DNA of 64,000 nt from Alicyclobacillus herbarius DSM 13609 (GTDB lineage Bacteria > Bacillota > Bacilli > Alicyclobacillales > Alicyclobacillaceae): NCBI RefSeq assembly GCF_000430585.1, contig NZ_AUMH01000009.1, positions 62,001-126,000 on the forward strand, in the 5' to 3' direction. Both the position numbers and the translations under genes were made by a program. The notes under the pieces were generated by a model. It saw only the letters and a list, made by a program, of their open reading frames with translations. It made no database searches and was not told the origin of the DNA. Each line of letters opens with the position of its first letter. Positions within the stretch are counted from its first letter, which is position 1. Positions 1,674-44,599 of this stretch are shown piece after piece.

Positions 1674-3464
1674 TCACGCAAGGGCGGAGACCGCCTCGAT
1701 AAACGCTTGCGCATCCGTCTTTAGGTGATGCATCGCCGCTTGCCAAAACTCGGGTTGGGTCAAATCCACCCCCAGGTGCTTGGCAGCCAGTTCCTCAGTC
1801 GTCATGCGCCCCGTATCCCGCAGGAGATTGACATAGCGCTGGGCAAACTTTGGGCCCTCCTGACGCGCGCGGGCATAAATGCCCGTACTGAATAGATAAC
1901 CAAACGTATACGGAAAGTTGTAAAAGGGCACGTCCGTGATGTAAAAGTGGAGCTTGGATGCCCAGAAGCGAGGATGGTATTGGCTAAGCGCCCCACAAAA
2001 CGCTTCTCGCTCTGCCTCTTCCATCAGCTGATTCAGTTCCTCGGCGCTCACCATGCCCTGCCGCCGGCGTGCATAAAACCGCATTTCAAACAAAAACCGG
2101 GCGTGGATGTTCATGAACATGGCTACACTTTGCATCACCTTGGTGTCCAACATGGCCAACCGCTCCAAAGGTGATTCTGCCGCTGCCAGCGCTGCGTCCG
2201 CGACAATCGCCTCCGCGAACGTCGACGCGGTCTCGGCGACGTTCATAGCGTATTGTCCAGCCAAGTACGGAATCCCCTGCATCACGTGCTGATGATACGC
2301 GTGTCCCAACTCATGCGCGAGTGTTGCCACGTTATCTGCCGTGCCGGAGAAGGTCATAAAAATGCGCGTCTGTTCACTCTCCGGGAAGCTGGTGCAGAAT
2401 CCGCCCGGTCGCTTGCCTGGCCTATCCTCCGCCTCAATCCACCGCCGTTCGAAACAAGACCGGGCGAAATCCGCCATATCCGGACTGAAGCGAGCAAAGT
2501 GCTCCAGGATAAAATCGCGGGCCTCATCCGGAGAAAACGTCTTATCCTGCGATCCGACCGGTGCGTCGACGTCATGCCAGGCTAGTTTCTCCAATCCGAG
2601 CAGCCGCGCCTTGGCCGCAAGCGCCTGGACAAACGTCTCCTTGTGCTCGACAATTACCCCCCACATTGTCTCCAGCGTCTTACCGCTCATCCGATTGACC
2701 TCAAGGGGTTCCGCCAAGACGTCGTTCCACCCGCGCGCCTTGTAGACCGCCAAGCGATATCCGGCCAAGTGATTGAGTGTCTGCGCGTAGAGGTCCTGCT
2801 GCTTGGCAAACGCCTCCTCGAAGCGCTCAAACACACGCTCCCGAACGCTGCGCTGGCCGTCCCGCAGCTTGTTGTTCGCCTGTCCCACCGACAGCTGTAC
2901 AGTCTGGCCGTTTTCTTCGTAGGGAATCAAGGTTTTGCCAATCAACGAATAGTAGAAGTTTCCCCAGGCGTGATACCCGTTCACTGCCAAATCGGAGATC
3001 AGCGCCTCCTGTGCGGCTGGCAGCCTGCGCGCCGCCCGCTGCCGCCATTCCGTTAGCGCGAAGGCAATCGGAGCCACCCTGGGTTCTTGGATGAGGGTCT
3101 GCCAAAGCGTGTCGGGAATCCGCCCGACTACCTCTTCGGCGACGACGGAGACGGATTCGTACGTCGCGGATAGCTGGTTCACCCGCCCTTCCAACAGCTT
3201 GGCCTGTTGGTCATACACATCCTGCGCCGACAGACAGCTGACGAACGCCCCGGCCTCGCTGAGGCGTTTCGATACGCTTTCGAACGGCTGCAAAAACGCC
3301 AACCAACCCTCCACATCCATGTCCGGCGCAAGCGTATCCGCCGCCACGCGCAGTGCTTGCAAATCTGCCTCCAGTCTGGAGAGAAACTGTTGAAACCGTT
3401 CCGACGTACTCCCGCCTGGGAATATGACATCCAGGTCCCAGGTGGGGTTCCATGAAGCTGCCAC
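1674..3464 (-). CDS. pepF: Oligoendopeptidase F-family M3 metallopeptidase
   Basis: About 596 residues, the normal size for cytosolic PepF/M3B zinc peptidases that cut short peptides. The zinc site HELGH is at about residues 384-388, inside LAHELGHAYHQHV, and the usual N-terminal helical domain precedes it. The GTG at 3464 is preferred because AAAAGGGAG lies about 7 bases upstream; the frame is open to an ATG at 3509 that lacks a ribosome binding site. The family mostly handles peptide turnover; the specific substrate is not evident. It is monocistronic, with its own terminator. Confidence 0.9.
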   Translation of the reverse strand: MAASWNPTWDLDVIFPGGSTSERFQQFLSRLEADLQALRVAADTLAPDMDVEGWLAFLQPFESVSKRLSEAGAFVSCLSAQDVYDQQAKLLEGRVNQLSATYESVSVVAEEVVGRIPDTLWQTLIQEPRVAPIAFALTEWRQRAARRLPAAQEALISDLAVNGYHAWGNFYYSLIGKTLIPYEENGQTVQLSVGQANNKLRDGQRSVRERVFERFEEAFAKQQDLYAQTLNHLAGYRLAVYKARGWNDVLAEPLEVNRMSGKTLETMWGVIVEHKETFVQALAAKARLLGLEKLAWHDVDAPVGSQDKTFSPDEARDFILEHFARFSPDMADFARSCFERRWIEAEDRPGKRPGGFCTSFPESEQTRIFMTFSGTADNVATLAHELGHAYHQHVMQGIPYLAGQYAMNVAETASTFAEAIVADAALAAAESPLERLAMLDTKVMQSVAMFMNIHARFLFEMRFYARRRQGMVSAEELNQLMEEAEREAFCGALSQYHPRFWASKLHFYITDVPFYNFPYTFGYLFSTGIYARARQEGPKFAQRYVNLLRDTGRMTTEELAAKHLGVDLTQPEFWQAAMHHLKTDAQAFIEAVSALA

Positions 3465-4682: not shown

Positions 4683-5294
4683 ATGCGGCAGCCCATGAGC
4701 CGAGAAGAGCGCCATCGGCATATCCTGGATACGGCCAAGCGCCTGTTTCAAGAACGCGGTTACGAAAACGTCACCATCGCCGACGTGATTGCGGCCAGCA
4801 ACATCGCCCGCGGCACCTTTTACCTGCACTTTCATTCCCTTGAACACCTGTTGTCCGACCTGTTTGAGGAGACGGTCAACACCGCCTGGGAGCGCATCGC
4901 CCCCATTCTCGCCGACAACGCGCTGTCCTTTGAAGCGCGGACGATGGCGGTCATTGATGCTGTCCTGAGGCTGTTTGGGGACGATCCGTCCCTCGGTGCG
5001 GTCTTCTACTGCGGCGGGGGCCGTGCCTTTGTCGAAACCAAGCAGCGTGCCATGTATGACCGGTTCGGCTCCCGTCTCGTCGAGGCGCTGGAGCGACGCC
5101 ACCCGGGTGTATCCATTCCGCACCTAGACTGGACCGTCAAGATGCTCATCGCCTTGGTCGGCGATATGGCCTTCTACGCGACGACCGAGGTCGCTCCCGA
5201 GGAGCGCAATGCATTTGAACAACGCCTATACGAATTCGTCCTCGCCGGCATCCGCAGCCACCTCGCCCCTCACATCCCACTCGACGGCATCTGA
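4683..5294 (+). CDS. TetR-family transcriptional regulator
   Basis: About 203 residues. The DNA-binding helix-turn-helix is at about residues 24-48 (ENVTIADVIAASNIARGTFY, then LHFHS), followed by an all-helical ligand domain. The ATG at 4683 follows AAAGGA by 9 bases. The open frame extends upstream into the LysR gene but lacks a signal there. It is a probable operon partner of the LysR gene. The target and ligand are unknown; QacR/AcrR-like repressors often control pumps or fatty-acid genes, but nothing here ties it to one. Confidence 0.9.
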   Translation: MRQPMSREERHRHILDTAKRLFQERGYENVTIADVIAASNIARGTFYLHFHSLEHLLSDLFEETVNTAWERIAPILADNALSFEARTMAVIDAVLRLFGDDPSLGAVFYCGGGRAFVETKQRAMYDRFGSRLVEALERRHPGVSIPHLDWTVKMLIALVGDMAFYATTEVAPEERNAFEQRLYEFVLAGIRSHLAPHIPLDGI

Positions 5295-12080: not shown

Positions 12081-12103
12081 CGTCATCATCGTTTACCGAA
12101 CGG

Positions 12104-12188
12104 CACTTCCTCACGCTGGCATTATCCAGATCGAGTCCCCAGGGTTAACGGTCTCCCGTTTCTCAGCCATACTGGCACCCCTAGCGCC
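12104..12188 (-). promoter_or_regulatory. TPP (THI-box) riboswitch
   Basis: Read on the minus strand, the conserved elements occur in order: CTAGGGGTGCC, GGCTGAGA, ACCGTTAACCCT, GATCTGGATAATGCCAGCG and GTGAGGAAGT. These are the hallmark aptamer segments of the thiamine diphosphate riboswitch. With the downstream terminator, thiamine diphosphate binding should shut off ykoE and the ECF module gene. Confidence 0.97.
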
Positions 12189-12207
12189 ATCTATTCAGTT
12201 CCCCTTC

Positions 12208-39046: not shown

Positions 39047-40219
39047 CTACGAGCGCCGATAGATCTCGCATCCTTGCACCCAAGTTGCCAGAACCGACAT
39101 AGACTCATCCATGAGCACGAAATCCGCGTCCATCCCGGCCGCAATATCCCCTTTACAATCGACCAATCCGAGCTGGCGAGCGGGCGTCGTACTGGCCATG
39201 CGGACCACGTCCGGCAGGCTGACCCCCACCTTGGCGGCCATATTGCGGACCGCTTGGTCCATCGTCAGGGTGCTCCCGGCCAGCTGCTCGGTTCCGGCCA
39301 AACAGGCGCGTCCGGCCTTCACTTCCACTGGGAGTCCACCGAGATCGTACACCCCATCCGGCTGGCCCGCGGCCGCCATAGCGTCCGTGATGAGGGTGAT
39401 TCCATCCGGCCCCTTGACTTTTACGACGAGCTTCAACACGTCCCAGGCGACGTGCTGACCGTCAGCAATCACTTCACAGACCACGCGTTCGTCCAACAGC
39501 GCCGCCGTAACCGGACCGCCCTCCCGGTGGTGAAGTCCGCGCATGCCGTTGAACAGATGCGTGGCCCGTCGGACGCCAGCCTCAATCGCCGCCTCGGCCA
39601 AGTCGGAAGAGGCATCGGTGTGGCCCATCGAAATGAGCACCTGACGCTGTCCGAGCCAACGGACGAGATCGAGGCCACCTGGCCGTTCCGGCGCCAACGT
39701 CATGCAGCGAACCAGACCGGACGCACGGTGCATGAGAGACTCCGTCACGGCCACCGAGGGAGCTTGAATAAATTCCGGGTTTTGCGCACCCCGACGGTTA
39801 GGAGCGATGAACGGGCCCTCCAGATGCACCCCCAGAATCGTTGGGATGAGTCGCGCCTCGTCACTCGCCTGTCGAACCGCATCCAGGGCCTTCATCAGCC
39901 GGTCCTCAGCGGCCGTCAGGGTGGTCGGAAGCCAAGCCGTTGTCCCGTGCGCGGCGTGAAAACGCCCGATGCGCTCCACGCTTTTCACCGAGCCGTCCAT
40001 GACATCCGCGCCATTGCCGCCATGCACATGCATATCAATAAACCCCGGTAGCAACCAGGATCCTTGCCCGTCGATGACGGGACATGCCCAATCATAAGGG
40101 GACGCCCCGGTCCCCACTTCCCGGATGATCCCGCCCGTCACGCGAATGAACGCATCCTCTTGGATGCCGCGCGCGCTGACCACTCGAACGTGCTGTATGA
40201 CCCAATCCTCCGCAGTCAT
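39047..40219 (-). CDS. nagA: N-acetylglucosamine-6-phosphate deacetylase
   Basis: 390 residues, amidohydrolase superfamily. GFIDMHVHGGNGADVMDG, GVHLEGPFI, MGHTDASS and THLFNGM are NagA landmarks with metal and substrate His/Glu residues. It removes acetate from GlcNAc-6-P so the sugar can enter glycolysis or cell-wall synthesis. The ATG at 40219 is 5 bases after the ptsI stop and has GAGGTG upstream. Operon with ptsH-ptsI; no nagB is visible. Confidence 0.95.
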   Translation of the reverse strand: MTAEDWVIQHVRVVSARGIQEDAFIRVTGGIIREVGTGASPYDWACPVIDGQGSWLLPGFIDMHVHGGNGADVMDGSVKSVERIGRFHAAHGTTAWLPTTLTAAEDRLMKALDAVRQASDEARLIPTILGVHLEGPFIAPNRRGAQNPEFIQAPSVAVTESLMHRASGLVRCMTLAPERPGGLDLVRWLGQRQVLISMGHTDASSDLAEAAIEAGVRRATHLFNGMRGLHHREGGPVTAALLDERVVCEVIADGQHVAWDVLKLVVKVKGPDGITLITDAMAAAGQPDGVYDLGGLPVEVKAGRACLAGTEQLAGSTLTMDQAVRNMAAKVGVSLPDVVRMASTTPARQLGLVDCKGDIAAGMDADFVLMDESMSVLATWVQGCEIYRRS

Positions 40220-40224
40220 GCACA

Positions 40225-41943
40225 TCACCTCGCTGATATGCCAATCTCCTCCGCCACGGTCGCCTGCACCAACCTCGCTTGCGCTTGCACCTTTGCCGCT
40301 TGACTGTCGATCCGGGCCAAGCGCTCTTTGACAAACGGGATGGACCCGGCACTCATCGACAGTTCCGTCAGTCCCAACCCGACCAGCACCTCGGTAGCCT
40401 CCACATCGCCCGCCAGTTCCCCACACATACCGACTGGAATTCCCGCTTGACGCGCCGCCTCGCAGGTCATCTCGACCAGGCGCAAGACCCCCGGGTGCAG
40501 GGGTTGGTAGAGTTCCGCAACCCGCTCGTTACCGCGGTCTACGGCCAAGGTATACTGCGTCAAATCGTTCGTCCCGATGCTCATAAAGTCGACTTCACGC
40601 GCAAACACATCCGCGAATATGGCGGCCGCAGGGATTTCGACCATCATCCCAACCTTGATGTACGCCGCCACTTCGACGCCTTCGGCCGCGAGTTCCTGGC
40701 GACAATCGGCTAGAATGTCTTTGGCCTGGCGCAGTTCGGATAAAGACTGAATCATCGGGAACATAACCCAGAGCTGCCCGTACCGACTGGCGCGCAGCAA
40801 AGCCCGCAGCTGCACGCGGAATACCTCCGGGTGCGCCAAACAAAACCGGATGGCTCGATGCCCGAGGAACGGGTTCTCCTCACGCGGCAAGTCGGCATAC
40901 GGCAGAGGCTTGTCCCCGCCGATGTCCAGCGTCCGGATGATGACCGGTCTGGGCGCAAAGGCCTCCAGCACTGTGCGGTAAGCGATGAACTGCTCGTCCT
41001 CCGTCGGCCAATGACCGCTGTCCTGATATAAAAACTCGGTCCGGAATAAGCCCACCCCTTCTGCGCCGCTGGCCAGCGCCAGGTCGATGTCCTTGAGGCT
41101 GCCGATGTTGGCAAACACCTCAATGCGCTGCCCATCCTGCGTACGGGCTGGTGTCTGAGCCGCTTGGCGAGCCGCCTCGCGGCGCGACTGTTCGCGTGCA
41201 GCTTGTTCCCGCGCAGCCTTCTCGAACATCTCGTCCGGCCGCACGGTGACCGTTCCAGACCCGCCATCGACCACCAGTGTGTCGCCATCCTGGAGGTCAG
41301 CCAACGCCACATCGCCGAGGCCCACCACACTGGGAATGCCCATTGTCCGCGCCAAAATCGCCGTATGCGCCGTCTTGCTGCCGTGGGCAAGGACAAACCC
41401 GGCCACATGAGCGGGCAGCTGTGCCGTATCGGACGGGGTGAGTTCCTCAGCCACGATGATGGCCCCTTCAGGCACGTCTTTGCTACCGCTTTCGCGGCCC
41501 GTCAAAATTCGCAGTAGACGGCTTCCTACGTCCCGGATGTCACCTGCTCGCGCGCGCAGGTAATCGTCTGGGATGGCCGCCAACATTTCCGCCGTCGCCT
41601 CGGTCACCTGTTGACAGATGAACTCGGCGCCCATGAACTTGTCGCCAATCTGTTTCTGAATCTCGCCGGTGTAGGCCGGATCGTCCAGAAACGCCAGGTG
41701 GGCATCGAAGACCTTCGCTTCCGTTTCCCCCACTTGTCTTGCCGTCTGCTGCCGGATTTGTGCGATTTCCTGTTTGGCCTGCGCCACAGCGGCGGCAAAG
41801 CGTTGCTGTTCTTTGGGAGCCTGTTCCGGTGTTAACTGCCACTCCACAATCACGACATCGTCCTTTTTCCAGATAAAAGCCGGACCCACAGCCATGCCTG
41901 GCGAAGCCGCGATGCCCTGGAAAACCTGTTGCGCCGATTGCAT
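40225..41943 (-). CDS. ptsI: PTS enzyme I (phosphoenolpyruvate-protein phosphotransferase)
   Basis: 572 residues. The phosphohistidine is about residue 193 in HGSKTAHTAILAR, and the PEP-binding barrel contains GVGLFRTEFLY, IIRTLDIGGDKP and DFMSIGTNDLTQY. It transfers phosphate from PEP to HPr. The start (MQSAQQVFQG) follows AAAGGA by 8 bases. ptsH is upstream and nagA downstream. Confidence 0.97.
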   Translation of the reverse strand: MQSAQQVFQGIAASPGMAVGPAFIWKKDDVVIVEWQLTPEQAPKEQQRFAAAVAQAKQEIAQIRQQTARQVGETEAKVFDAHLAFLDDPAYTGEIQKQIGDKFMGAEFICQQVTEATAEMLAAIPDDYLRARAGDIRDVGSRLLRILTGRESGSKDVPEGAIIVAEELTPSDTAQLPAHVAGFVLAHGSKTAHTAILARTMGIPSVVGLGDVALADLQDGDTLVVDGGSGTVTVRPDEMFEKAAREQAAREQSRREAARQAAQTPARTQDGQRIEVFANIGSLKDIDLALASGAEGVGLFRTEFLYQDSGHWPTEDEQFIAYRTVLEAFAPRPVIIRTLDIGGDKPLPYADLPREENPFLGHRAIRFCLAHPEVFRVQLRALLRASRYGQLWVMFPMIQSLSELRQAKDILADCRQELAAEGVEVAAYIKVGMMVEIPAAAIFADVFAREVDFMSIGTNDLTQYTLAVDRGNERVAELYQPLHPGVLRLVEMTCEAARQAGIPVGMCGELAGDVEATEVLVGLGLTELSMSAGSIPFVKERLARIDSQAAKVQAQARLVQATVAEEIGISAR

Positions 41944-41974
41944 ACATTCCATCCTTTCCACCGTGACACACATC

Positions 41975-42009
41975 GGCTCCTCGGTCCCTGTTTCGGGAAC
42001 CGAGGAGCC
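41975..42009 (-). promoter_or_regulatory. Stable hairpin in the ptsH-ptsI gap
   Basis: GGCTCCTCGGT and ACCGAGGAGCC pair perfectly, with further CCC/GGG pairing inside. There is no U tract after it. It may adjust the HPr to enzyme I ratio by processing or partial termination. Confidence 0.6.
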
Positions 42010-42029
42010 CATCAAGACATGTTATCCGG

Positions 42030-42293
42030 TTATTCTCCTAGACCGCTTTCAATCAAAGCAACGACCGCCTTGAGCGCTTCTTCCTCGCCTTCACCCTGCG
42101 CCCGAATGGTCACCGTCTGACCCGACTGGACCGCTAGCGACATCACGCCAAGGATACTCTTCGCGTCTACTTCTTTGTCCTCCTTACGAATCCAAATCTG
42201 ACAGCTATGCCTCCCACACTCCTGAACCAAGAGGGCAGCGGGCCGGGCATGAAGTCCACTCGGGTTCTTAATCGTGACCGTCTGTTCCGTCAT
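42030..42293 (-). CDS. ptsH: Phosphocarrier protein HPr
   Basis: 87 residues. His15 in GLHARPAA takes phosphate from enzyme I, and Ser46 in KSILGVMSL is the target of HPr kinase, a Firmicute trait used in carbon catabolite repression. A GGAAGGAGAG site precedes the ATG. Confidence 0.97.
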   Translation of the reverse strand: MTEQTVTIKNPSGLHARPAALLVQECGRHSCQIWIRKEDKEVDAKSILGVMSLAVQSGQTVTIRAQGEGEEEALKAVVALIESGLGE

Positions 42294-42398
42294 GAAAGAA
42301 CTCTCCTTCCCTTCTCAAATCGCAGAGGTATCATCGCTTGCCCTTCTATTCTACCGGTTTTGACAGCAAAACGATGAAACCGATTGACCCCTAAGCAA

Positions 42399-42439
42399 CA
42401 AAAAAGGCAGGCGTGAGCGAATCTCAGCTCATGCCTGCC
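42399..42439 (-). terminator. Terminator between the antiterminator gene and ptsH
   Basis: Minus strand: GGCAGGCATGAGC, 8-base loop, GCTCACGCCTGCC (13 pairs with one G-U or mismatch), then TTTTTT. Its 5' arm is shared with the RAT-like element. Confidence 0.88.
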
Positions 42440-42464
42440 CGTTGCATCGGCAGTAACACGCTTC
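42432..42464 (-). promoter_or_regulatory. RAT-like ribonucleic antiterminator upstream of ptsH
   Basis: Minus-strand RNA has AGCGTGTTACTGCC, a short loop, then GGGCAGGCA. This matches the GTTACTG...GCAGGCA core of RAT elements bound by LicT/SacY/GlcT-family proteins. The 3' half overlaps the terminator's 5' arm, so RAT folding would exclude the terminator. Confidence 0.72.
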
Positions 42465-42470
42465 GACTTG

Positions 42471-42499
42471 ATTATAGTACATTCCCGATTGCTCGACAA
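42471..42499 (-). promoter_or_regulatory. SigA promoter of ptsH-ptsI-nagA
   Basis: Minus strand: -35 TTGTCG (42494-42499), 17 bases, -10 TATAAT (42471-42476). Transcription would start at the RAT-like element. Confidence 0.8.
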
Positions 42500-42539
42500 T
42501 CCTGGGGCTGACCGGGTGACGCGTCCTCCGCCAGCCACC

Positions 42540-43373
42540 TTACCGCTCACCGACAAACCGCGCCAAAACCATGGCCAAAGAGGCGATTTCGTCGCTCGGA
42601 AACGGCTTTCCAATCTTACGTTCTAACAATTGCGCCAATTCCTGCGCCTTGGCGTAACTCTTCGGCAATCGCTCCATGATGGCGTCCAGGAGTGGGTTTG
42701 CAACCAACTCCCCGCGCAGGACCCGCTGTACGGCAAAGCGCAGATGGGAAACCAGACGCGCGTATTCCAATCCGGTGCGGTCAAACGGCCCTACCCAGGC
42801 TTCCAACTGTTCTACCGCACTGCGCACCACTATAGCCGTTCGCGCCACATCAGACGATCCGCCCGGCTGCGCGGCGGCTTGCAGGTGTAAAGCGAGAAAC
42901 CCGATTTCTGCCTGCGGCACCTGAACGCCCAATCGACAGGTCATCATCGCAGCTGCGCTCTCCGCCACCCGCCAGGCGTCTGGATAGAGCGTCTGGATTT
43001 CCTCCACGAACGGATTCTCAACCTCCAGGCCGGCCCGAAGCCGCTCAATAGCCAAACCAATATGATCCGCCAGGGCAATGTGAATCCGTTCATTCAACGG
43101 CCCCGGCAGGCGGTCTTCGGCCAATGTGATGATGGCTTCGGCGACCTCGGCCACCTCCGGCTTAAGACGGGACATGACCCGTTCGAACTGCAAGCGGTTG
43201 TCCGGCCCCAACAGAACAAACCGTTTTTCCACCCGCGCATCGTCCGCATCCATACGTGTGCCGCGCTTGACCCCAAAGCCGATGCCACGCCCAATGAGAA
43301 TCTGTTCACCGGCCGTCCCTTCAACAATCACGACGTTATTGTTCAGCACCCGCTGCACGATACACTCGGACAC
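42540..43373 (-). CDS. PRD-containing transcription antiterminator of the LicT/GlcT group
   Basis: 277 residues. An RNA-binding CAT domain (about 1-55, VLNNNVVIVEGTAGEQILIG) precedes two PRD domains. PRD1 has H104 and H163; PRD2 has H210, but the second PRD2 histidine is replaced by valine (DEIASLAMV, residue 269). GTG 43373 follows GGAGGG by 7 bases. It lies directly upstream of the promoter-RAT-terminator and ptsHI-nagA, so it likely controls them in response to PTS phosphorylation. Confidence 0.9.
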   Translation of the reverse strand: MSECIVQRVLNNNVVIVEGTAGEQILIGRGIGFGVKRGTRMDADDARVEKRFVLLGPDNRLQFERVMSRLKPEVAEVAEAIITLAEDRLPGPLNERIHIALADHIGLAIERLRAGLEVENPFVEEIQTLYPDAWRVAESAAAMMTCRLGVQVPQAEIGFLALHLQAAAQPGGSSDVARTAIVVRSAVEQLEAWVGPFDRTGLEYARLVSHLRFAVQRVLRGELVANPLLDAIMERLPKSYAKAQELAQLLERKIGKPFPSDEIASLAMVLARFVGER

Positions 43374-43460
43374 CGAATCGCCCTCCGTTCCCAATCCCTG
43401 CGTATCATTGTACATCATCCTCAGGCAGATGGAGGCGACTTCAATCATCTATGCAAGACT

Positions 43461-43469
43461 TGGTATAAT
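43461..43469 (+). promoter_or_regulatory. Extended -10 promoter for the DMT transporter gene
   Basis: TGG-TATAAT (TATAAT at 43464-43469), about 98 bases before the start. -35 not clear. Confidence 0.4.
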
Positions 43470-43566
43470 AAAGTTTCATTCCCCAGTGAATTCGTCGCTT
43501 GTACCAATCACTGCGTCTTGCAGGAAACCATACACACCTTGCGTTCGAGAAAGGGGCTTTTACACA

Positions 43567-44535
43567 ATGGCCACGTCTACACAGCAGCCCCCGGTTGCAC
43601 GCCTTCCCTTCGGCCCGGCCAGGTCAGGGAAAACCAAATGGTTGTTTGTATTGCTTGGCGTCGGCGTGATCGCGGTTTCGTTTTCGGCCATTTTCATCAA
43701 ATGGACCCCCGCCCCGGCGTCCGTGATTGGGATGTACCGACTGCTCTTTACCCTGCCGCTCGTACTGCCGATGGTCGTTCGCCGTCGCCGCGAAATCCGG
43801 CAAGTTCGGCGACAAGACGCGGCGCTCCTAGCGCTCTCCGGGGTATTCCTGGGCCTGCATTTTTTATGCTGGATAGGTTCTTTCGCATACACCAGCGTGG
43901 CGAGCTCCATGATTCTCTTGTCCCTGCAACCCGTGTTCGTCATGATTGGCGCCTATTTCCTCTTTGGCGAAAGGACGCGCCTTGGCGGCATCCTGGCCAT
44001 GCTGCTGGCGCTTATCGGCAGCGCGGTCATCGCGCTGGCGGACGCCCAGGGACCGCATCGGGCGCTCTATGGGGACATGTTATCTCTCCTTGGTACCTTG
44101 GCGGTCTCCGGGTACATGTTGACCGGCCAACGCCTGCGCACGCGCATGGACTCGGGGATCTACAGTTTTTTCGTGTTTCTTGGCGCGGCCGCCCTGCTGG
44201 CGGTTTACAATCTATGGCTGGGAATCCCGTTTGCTCCCTATCCGAAACAGGCATGGTGGATGTTTGTCCTCATGGCCGTCATCCCAACCCTGTTTGGTCA
44301 TTCCTTGTTCAACTGGCTGCTCCAGCACATCCGTGCCACCCACATTTCTATGGCGATTCTCGGCGAACCTGTGGGAGCGATTCTATTAGCCTGTCTGCTA
44401 CTCGGCGCACCCCTGAGGCCGCTGCAGGCCATCGGTGGGCTGTTAACCCTTGGCGGGGTATGCTTGTTCCTGAAACTTGGCACCCCCGAATCCGAAAACG
44501 AATTTCAAAAGGATGCAGGGTACGACGTGGATTAG
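43567..44535 (+). CDS. DMT-superfamily transporter (EamA)
   Basis: 322 residues, about ten transmembrane helices in two EamA repeats. The second repeat has GHSLFNWLLQHIRATHISMAILGEPVGA. AAAGGGG lies about 12 bases before the ATG. It likely exports a small metabolite or amino acid; the substrate is unknown. Confidence 0.88.
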   Translation: MATSTQQPPVARLPFGPARSGKTKWLFVLLGVGVIAVSFSAIFIKWTPAPASVIGMYRLLFTLPLVLPMVVRRRREIRQVRRQDAALLALSGVFLGLHFLCWIGSFAYTSVASSMILLSLQPVFVMIGAYFLFGERTRLGGILAMLLALIGSAVIALADAQGPHRALYGDMLSLLGTLAVSGYMLTGQRLRTRMDSGIYSFFVFLGAAALLAVYNLWLGIPFAPYPKQAWWMFVLMAVIPTLFGHSLFNWLLQHIRATHISMAILGEPVGAILLACLLLGAPLRPLQAIGGLLTLGGVCLFLKLGTPESENEFQKDAGYDVD

Positions 44536-44599
44536 CTGGCTACAATGAGTCTTATAAAAGAGTTATAATCAGCCTGTTATTGCCTGTATTTAGGGGGCT

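Follow-up and report, generated by a model that had tools for sequence, protein, structure and literature searches.

We analysed a ptsH-ptsI-nagA cluster and the regulator gene adjoining it in a stretch of 64,000 nucleotides from Alicyclobacillus herbarius DSM 13609, hereafter called the window. On the minus strand, the order is GlcT-like gene, promoter, RAT, terminator, ptsH, ptsI and nagA, and the features are as follows:

42540..43373, minus strand: GlcT-like antiterminator gene (CAT RNA-binding domain, PRD-I and PRD-II; from Pfam, NCBIfam and histidine columns)
42471..42499, minus strand: promoter-like site TTGTCG-17-TATAAT, with a predicted start near 42464
42426..42462, minus strand: RAT (antiterminator RNA; from folding and pair counts over 53 distinct RATs)
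42400..42439, minus strand: intrinsic terminator ending in T6, with the RAT 3' arm in common (from folding; the arrangement recurs in relatives)
42030..42293, minus strand: ptsH (HPr; Pfam/NCBIfam; His15 and Ser46 regions intact)
40225..42015, minus strand: ptsI (enzyme I; Pfam/NCBIfam)
39047..40225, minus strand: nagA (GlcNAc-6-phosphate deacetylase; TIGR00221, 322.1 bits, cut-off 225.65)

The coordinates of the original prediction proved correct, and sequence and domain searches bore out its central reading that ptsH-ptsI-nagA lies behind a promoter-RAT-terminator unit adjoining its own GlcT-like regulator. It was likewise right that no EIIBC gene lies between the regulator and ptsH and that nagA, as identified by Pfam/NCBIfam, follows ptsI. 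The GlcT-like gene starts with a GTG at 43373, preceded by an SD-like GGAGG, and stops at 42540. The conserved part of ptsI begins at residue 33 of the longest open reading frame, and nagA, if it starts at its first ATG, shares one base with the ptsI stop. The nagB gene of this genome lies away from the nagA-containing operon, at C2:25593, and EIInag was not found in the genome.

The TTGTCG-17-TATAAT site was the sole promoter-like site on both strands of 42250-43600; since shuffled sequences already gave 0.5 such sites on average, the match by itself is weak. As judged by eye, a -10-like hexamer stands at approximately equal distance ahead of the RAT in most of 19 rows. No consensus promoter was found between the terminator and ptsH in the scan of 42250-43600. 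Note that the same scan also found none ahead of ptsH in Alicyclobacillus shizuokensis, indicating that it can miss a working promoter. A weak or non-consensus ptsH promoter may lie downstream of the terminator in the window genome.

The RAT occupies 42462-42426 of the minus strand, and its core, GTGTTACTG...CAGGCATGAG at 42459-42428, has the paired flanks of a GlcT RAT. Specifically, AGC/GCT forms the lower stem, GTGTTA/GCATGA the internal region and CTGCC/GGCAG the upper stem. The terminator, GGCAGGCATGAGC-8-GCTCACGCCTGCC-T6 at 42439-42400, shares the 3' arm of the RAT, and such an overlap of RAT and intrinsic terminator in the target leader is the arrangement of BglG/SacY antitermination. 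For the terminator stretch 42440-42393 the folding energy was -24.0 kcal/mol (z -4.46), a value matched by none of 200 shuffles, and the terminator is also present in the minimum-energy fold of the leader 42470-42395. A simple automatic terminator scan listed no terminator here, probably because an A.C mismatch breaks the stem. By itself, the RAT hairpin was unexceptional (-12.3 kcal/mol, z -0.83, 34 of 200 shuffles as good), and Rfam at gathering thresholds matched in the window a TPP riboswitch alone (RF00059, 71.3 bits, 12091-12192, minus strand) and no RAT family. Because the hairpin energy was ordinary and Rfam gave no RAT match, the evidence for the RAT lies in conservation and comparison.

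We looked for RATs with an exact pattern, using the reversed pattern as a control. The pattern occurred once in the 3.3 Mb window genome (control, 0) and at 16 places in 15 of 41 family genomes, versus 2 control matches. The next gene was ptsH in four cases, EIInag or the N-terminal part of a split EIInag in 11 and nagA in one; three EIInag proteins were identified with NCBIfam, and the remaining ones by eye or from BLAST similarity to these three. The four family genomes with a RAT followed by ptsH were those of the window, A. contaminans (G015), A. pomorum (G024) and G016, and glcT-RAT-ptsH-ptsI was also present in G091, of the same class and another family. The original prediction had set conservation of the RAT pair in relatives as one of its tests, and the pair was indeed conserved: GTTACTG/CAGGCA stands ahead of ptsH in A. 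contaminans, G016 and G091, and the A. pomorum version reads GTTACTA. In addition, the terminator sharing the RAT 3' arm has the same arrangement in relatives.

Base pairs were then counted directly in 53 distinct RATs. Covariation was seen at three pairs of the lower stem and one of the upper stem, with the internal core nearly invariant: a1-b10 was GC 43, AT 9 and GT 1; a2-b9 was CG 48, TA 3 and TG 2; a11-b0 was GC 41, AT 10, AC 1 and GT 1; and a0-b11 was AT 18, GC 14, TA 6, TG 5, CG 3 and GT 2, with 5 unpaired. In these counts the sequences are related rather than independent events, and the search pattern fixes part of the core, so that only the free positions count as evidence. In the internal core of A. 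pomorum's second RAT, a G-C pair has become A-T through changes on both sides. RNAalifold on the family alignment returned a mixed structure only, probably from the RAT/terminator overlap and an apparently misaligned row (L003), and the direct pair counts were used instead. Given that close relatives share the unit after glcT and that the RAT stems covary, the promoter-RAT-terminator device is very likely functional. At the level of sequence, the promoter-like site, RAT, terminator, regulator and genes are evident, as is the conservation of the unit in relatives.

The relatives differ in what the unit contains. A. contaminans has two glcT genes, the first ahead of RAT-ptsH-ptsI-EIIA and the second ahead of a divergent RAT, EIInag, nagA and nagB. 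The divergent RAT (L045:4650-4710) carries GTGCGACTG in place of GTGTTACTG, and possibly insulates the two GlcT-like proteins of the cell from each other. The first unit of A. pomorum is RAT-ptsH-ptsI-EIIA-nagA; its EIInag (L049:1-440) has a RAT with a compensatory change and no adjoining glcT, and a stretch resembling, by eye, a 5S rRNA end lies just upstream of that RAT, at the contig start. G016 carries a second RAT-terminator directly ahead of nagA-nagB (L078:4800-4865, C55, minus strand), on another contig than glcT-RAT-ptsHI, which is possibly a trans target of a GlcT-like protein.

The GlcT-like protein consists of a CAT_RBD (Pfam, 53.3 bits, cut-off 25) followed by two PRD stretches, the composition of BglG/SacY antiterminators (an N-terminal CAT RNA-binding domain plus two PRDs), and it is the sole CAT_RBD match in the window's genome. 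Its best NCBIfam model was GlcT (NF047357), with 240.7 bits under a cut-off of 320. Four other Alicyclobacillus GlcT-like proteins (263.4-290.1) and that of G016 (108.4) also fell below this cut-off, and the Bacillus-type GlcT of L018 scored 376.4 bits. A single-protein search for named relatives gave no match, and an alignment-based search gave 109 relatives. We aligned 81 proteins, namely those of the window, G016 and 79 of the best 80 loci among the 109 relatives, leaving out the incomplete L137 and a G018 fragment. The four PRD histidine positions of BglG/SacY antiterminators are presumably phosphorylation sites, by correspondence with work on LicT and GlcT. All 81 proteins retain the two PRD-I histidines (H104 and H163), and 76 retain the PRD-II pair. 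The exceptions were the window protein, which keeps H210 and has V269 at the fourth position (three of four histidines), G016 (E, W) and three Shimazuella proteins (N, D). PRD-II has thus lost one histidine in the window and both in G016, with the PRD-I pair intact in each; four histidines are not a strict requirement, as 5 of the 81 proteins, including the window's, are without at least one. In the Shimazuella loci (L117, L120 and L138), EIInag- or PtsG-like genes follow the regulator, and the interval from nagB to ptsI showed no recognisable HPr gene. As both PRD-II histidines are lost there and EII genes follow, we rejected the idea that a decayed PRD-II is, as a rule, the sign of a missing EII.

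When 31 of the 81 GlcT-like proteins were placed in a tree, the four ptsHI-linked ones (window, A. contaminans, A. pomorum and G016) formed one side of a branch. Its support of 89/95 is below the value at which the tool counts a branch as firm, and the branch was present in 90% of bootstrap trees. The G016 regulator sits on a very long branch (4.42), and its placement is unsure.

We next consider which PTS parts the genome holds. Searches with PF02378, PF00358, PF00359, PF03610 and EIInag found no EIIA_1, EIIA-man or EIInag match in the window genome, and no glucose/GlcNAc-family EIIC or EIIA, that is, no cognate EII of a GlcT. Applied to G001 and G002, two genomes of the same genus, these searches did find EIIC and EIIA_1. 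The original prediction had not noticed this genome-wide absence of a glucose/GlcNAc EII, as seen in the EIIC, EIIA_1 and EIInag searches. The one EIIC found was of mannitol type, in an mtlA-mtlR-mtlF locus that is the sole complete EII found and is followed by mtlD, as named by eye. A PF00359-type EIIA fragment (L060:108-881, window genome contig C2) adjoins a TnpB/Cas12f1-like zinc-finger (PF07282) fragment and is a probable remnant of a lost PTS. An ordinary GlcT operon, classically regulated by glucose or GlcNAc, whose EII falls into an assembly gap is improbable in our view: the assembly has 57 contigs, and the EIIA fragment by a transposon-type gene near a contig start makes gaps at mobile elements likely, but completeness is 99.97%, all the EIIC, EIIA_1 and EIInag searches were negative for the glucose/GlcNAc type, and both EII and EIIA would need to be missing. 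G016 (completeness 97) likewise had no match to PF02378, PF00358, PF00359, PF03610 or EIInag, yet keeps glcT, RAT-ptsH-ptsI and the second RAT ahead of nagA-nagB. Both genomes have two PF00381 matches, one of them Crh-like with Leu at position 15, so that the RAT-controlled ptsH encodes the only HPr with the catalytic His15 found in either. An HPr kinase match was present in both genomes, with an uneven control in that B. subtilis gave no match.

The family of the missing EII can be read from the relatives. Behind glcT, in the best 80 of the 109 relatives and the family loci, we found EIInag, EIIA, HPr, EI, nagA and nagB in varying orders; L153, L155, L156 and L159 showed none of the EII, EIIA, HPr, EI or nag genes, and L110, L119 and L158 were excluded, the comparison covering features beyond base 3000 of each locus. 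In other Bacillota, PtsG-type EIIs lie behind glcT; in Paenibacillus, the EII is mostly upstream of glcT. With 583.6 against a cut-off of 553.2, the EII of A. macrosporangiidus passed the GlcNAc model of NCBIfam. The EIIs of A. shizuokensis and A. pomorum stayed below this cut-off but scored far higher on the GlcNAc than on the glucose model (510.0 versus 365.7 and 532.6 versus 388.8, respectively), and the EII of the Bacillus-type locus L018 passed the glucose model (643.8, cut-off 591.8). On these scores, the RAT-controlled EII of the window's family is, by its sequence, of GlcNAc type (EIInag) and not ptsG, which corrects the reading "GlcT, glucose" for Alicyclobacillus. The original prediction had suggested loss of an ancestral ptsG; on the model scores and the EIInag search, we rejected this in favour of EIInag. 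In addition, the EIInag of A. contaminans has its own second glcT, indicating that the ptsHI unit need never have contained an EII. Most likely, the window regulator descends from a GlcNAc-PTS regulon comprising EIInag, EIIA, ptsHI, nagA and nagB. Since the EII and EIIA of this ancestral regulon were not found in the window genome, the regulator probably no longer reports one specific sugar, and it appears to have outlived its sensor, with HPr~P, the mannitol EII or nothing as the inputs considered.

We consider it quite probable that, taken as a whole, the locus is a GlcT-type transcription attenuator whose regulator stems from the GlcNAc regulon and now exerts general-relay or constitutive control. 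Transcripts would start near 42464 and stop by default at the terminator (42439-42400). We infer that the product of the adjoining GlcT-like gene keeps the terminator from acting by binding the RAT, so that RNA polymerase would continue into ptsH-ptsI-nagA and readthrough would control ptsHI. PRD-I would be phosphorylated, if at all, most likely by HPr~P or the mannitol EII, and expression of ptsHI-nagA would track how far the relay as a whole is phosphorylated, or simply be on. Against this reading stand the NF047357 score below its cut-off, the clade support below the firm mark, a ptsH promoter that the scan may have missed, and the situation in the same-genus species A. shizuokensis, where the device is dispensable. 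There, ptsH-ptsI-nagA lies in the same place (HPr 93%, EI 73%), and 192 bases replace window positions 42308-44563, which hold glcT, the RAT and an EamA gene and have no blastn counterpart at the locus. No glcT or RAT was found within the 192 bases, indicating that these genes can do without the device; A. shizuokensis has its own glcT and RAT elsewhere, ahead of EIInag. Within a single genus, then, the device ahead of ptsH has either been acquired or disappeared. Recent insertion of 42308-44563 explains this no better than loss in A. shizuokensis, because the ptsHI-GlcT branch is common to A. pomorum, A. contaminans and G016.

The bare locus of this sister species also bears on the possibility that the antiterminator is constitutively active, that is, that with no EII to act on PRD-I the RAT is always bound, the terminator always bypassed and the device a low-cost relic. 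The lack of a detected cognate EII in the window genome, the decay of PRD-II in the window and G016, and the very long branch of the G016 protein fit this reading as well, to which we give less than even chances. However, a dead switch should decay, and the RAT and terminator are still well formed; the PRD-I histidines also remain in both proteins. Retention of PRD-I after the transporter has gone is odd, and would fit direct HPr input, mannitol cross-talk or a lag in decay. Mannitol cross-talk, in which MtlA/MtlF would phosphorylate PRD-I and mannitol would relieve it, is unlikely: mtlA-mtlR-mtlF is the sole complete EII locus found in the genome, but G016 keeps the unit without an EIIC or EIIA of the families tested, and GlcT usually pairs with an EII of a family other than the mannitol one. 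In its favour, cross-talk between EIIA and EIIB is on record for PTS proteins of B. subtilis (PMC6148471). In the usual scheme, HPr phosphorylates PRD-II to give the active form and the cognate transporter phosphorylates PRD-I to give the inactive one (PMC6148471). Direct reading of HPr~P by PRD-I, a closed loop in which EI and HPr would phosphorylate the licenser of their own genes' transcription, is a tentative idea to which we give rather low odds. If true, the level of the only His15-bearing HPr would be held to demand with no sugar sensed, and nagA (in G016 also nagB) would be coupled to HPr demand.

The accepted view is that a PRD antiterminator reports on a single transporter. A regulator with a well-formed RAT and without its transporter is a natural test of whether HPr alone can drive PRD-I, and the same genomes offer a test of how a sugar-specific switch turns housekeeping or homeostatic. 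In the titles and abstract openings of the mostly non-subscription literature searched, we found no RAT directly ahead of ptsH and no GlcT without its EII. That general PTS genes under antitermination are new in themselves, as the original prediction implied, is too strong a claim, since B. subtilis ptsGHI is a known case and nine Brevibacillus loci (among the best 80 of the 109 relatives) have RAT-EIIA-HPr-EI.

Among known systems, NagY of Enterococcus faecalis is an antiterminator of the same family that controls GlcNAc uptake through a RAT overlapping a terminator, with nagE, its own gene and hylA as targets; in the available part of that report, ptsHI is not named among them (PMC9981650). 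The GlcNAc operons of Alicyclobacillus and Brevibacillus (A. macrosporangiidus L083, A. fastidiosus L084, and Brevibacillus L089, L090, L092-L104, L107, L145, L146 and L148) have a homologous regulator, the same RAT type and a gene set of EII, HPr, EI, EIIA, nagA and nagB that varies in order and completeness, whereas the window is without EIInag and EIIA. In 15 of 19 Brevibacillus loci, a RAT also stands ahead of glcT (L089-L107, L145 and L148, positions about 4740-4883), suggesting autoregulation of glcT by antitermination; the window genome, with its one RAT, has none there. Another close case is the GlcT operon ptsGHI of B. subtilis (PMC12445079, PMC3648570). It likewise has a GlcT-type CAT-PRD-PRD protein encoded just upstream, ptsHI in the operon and a terminator overlapping the RAT, and the window's RAT core is the same as that ahead of Bacillus-type ptsG loci. 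In B. subtilis, however, ptsHI has a separate strong promoter, so that readthrough is described as having little effect on ptsHI (PMC12445079). The window differs in having no ptsG, in an operon that opens with ptsH and in the nagA gene that follows; the scan found no separate consensus promoter for ptsH, the genome searches found no cognate EII, and one PRD-II histidine is lost. GlcT-type control of ptsHI is already known, and the unusual part is the missing cognate EII.
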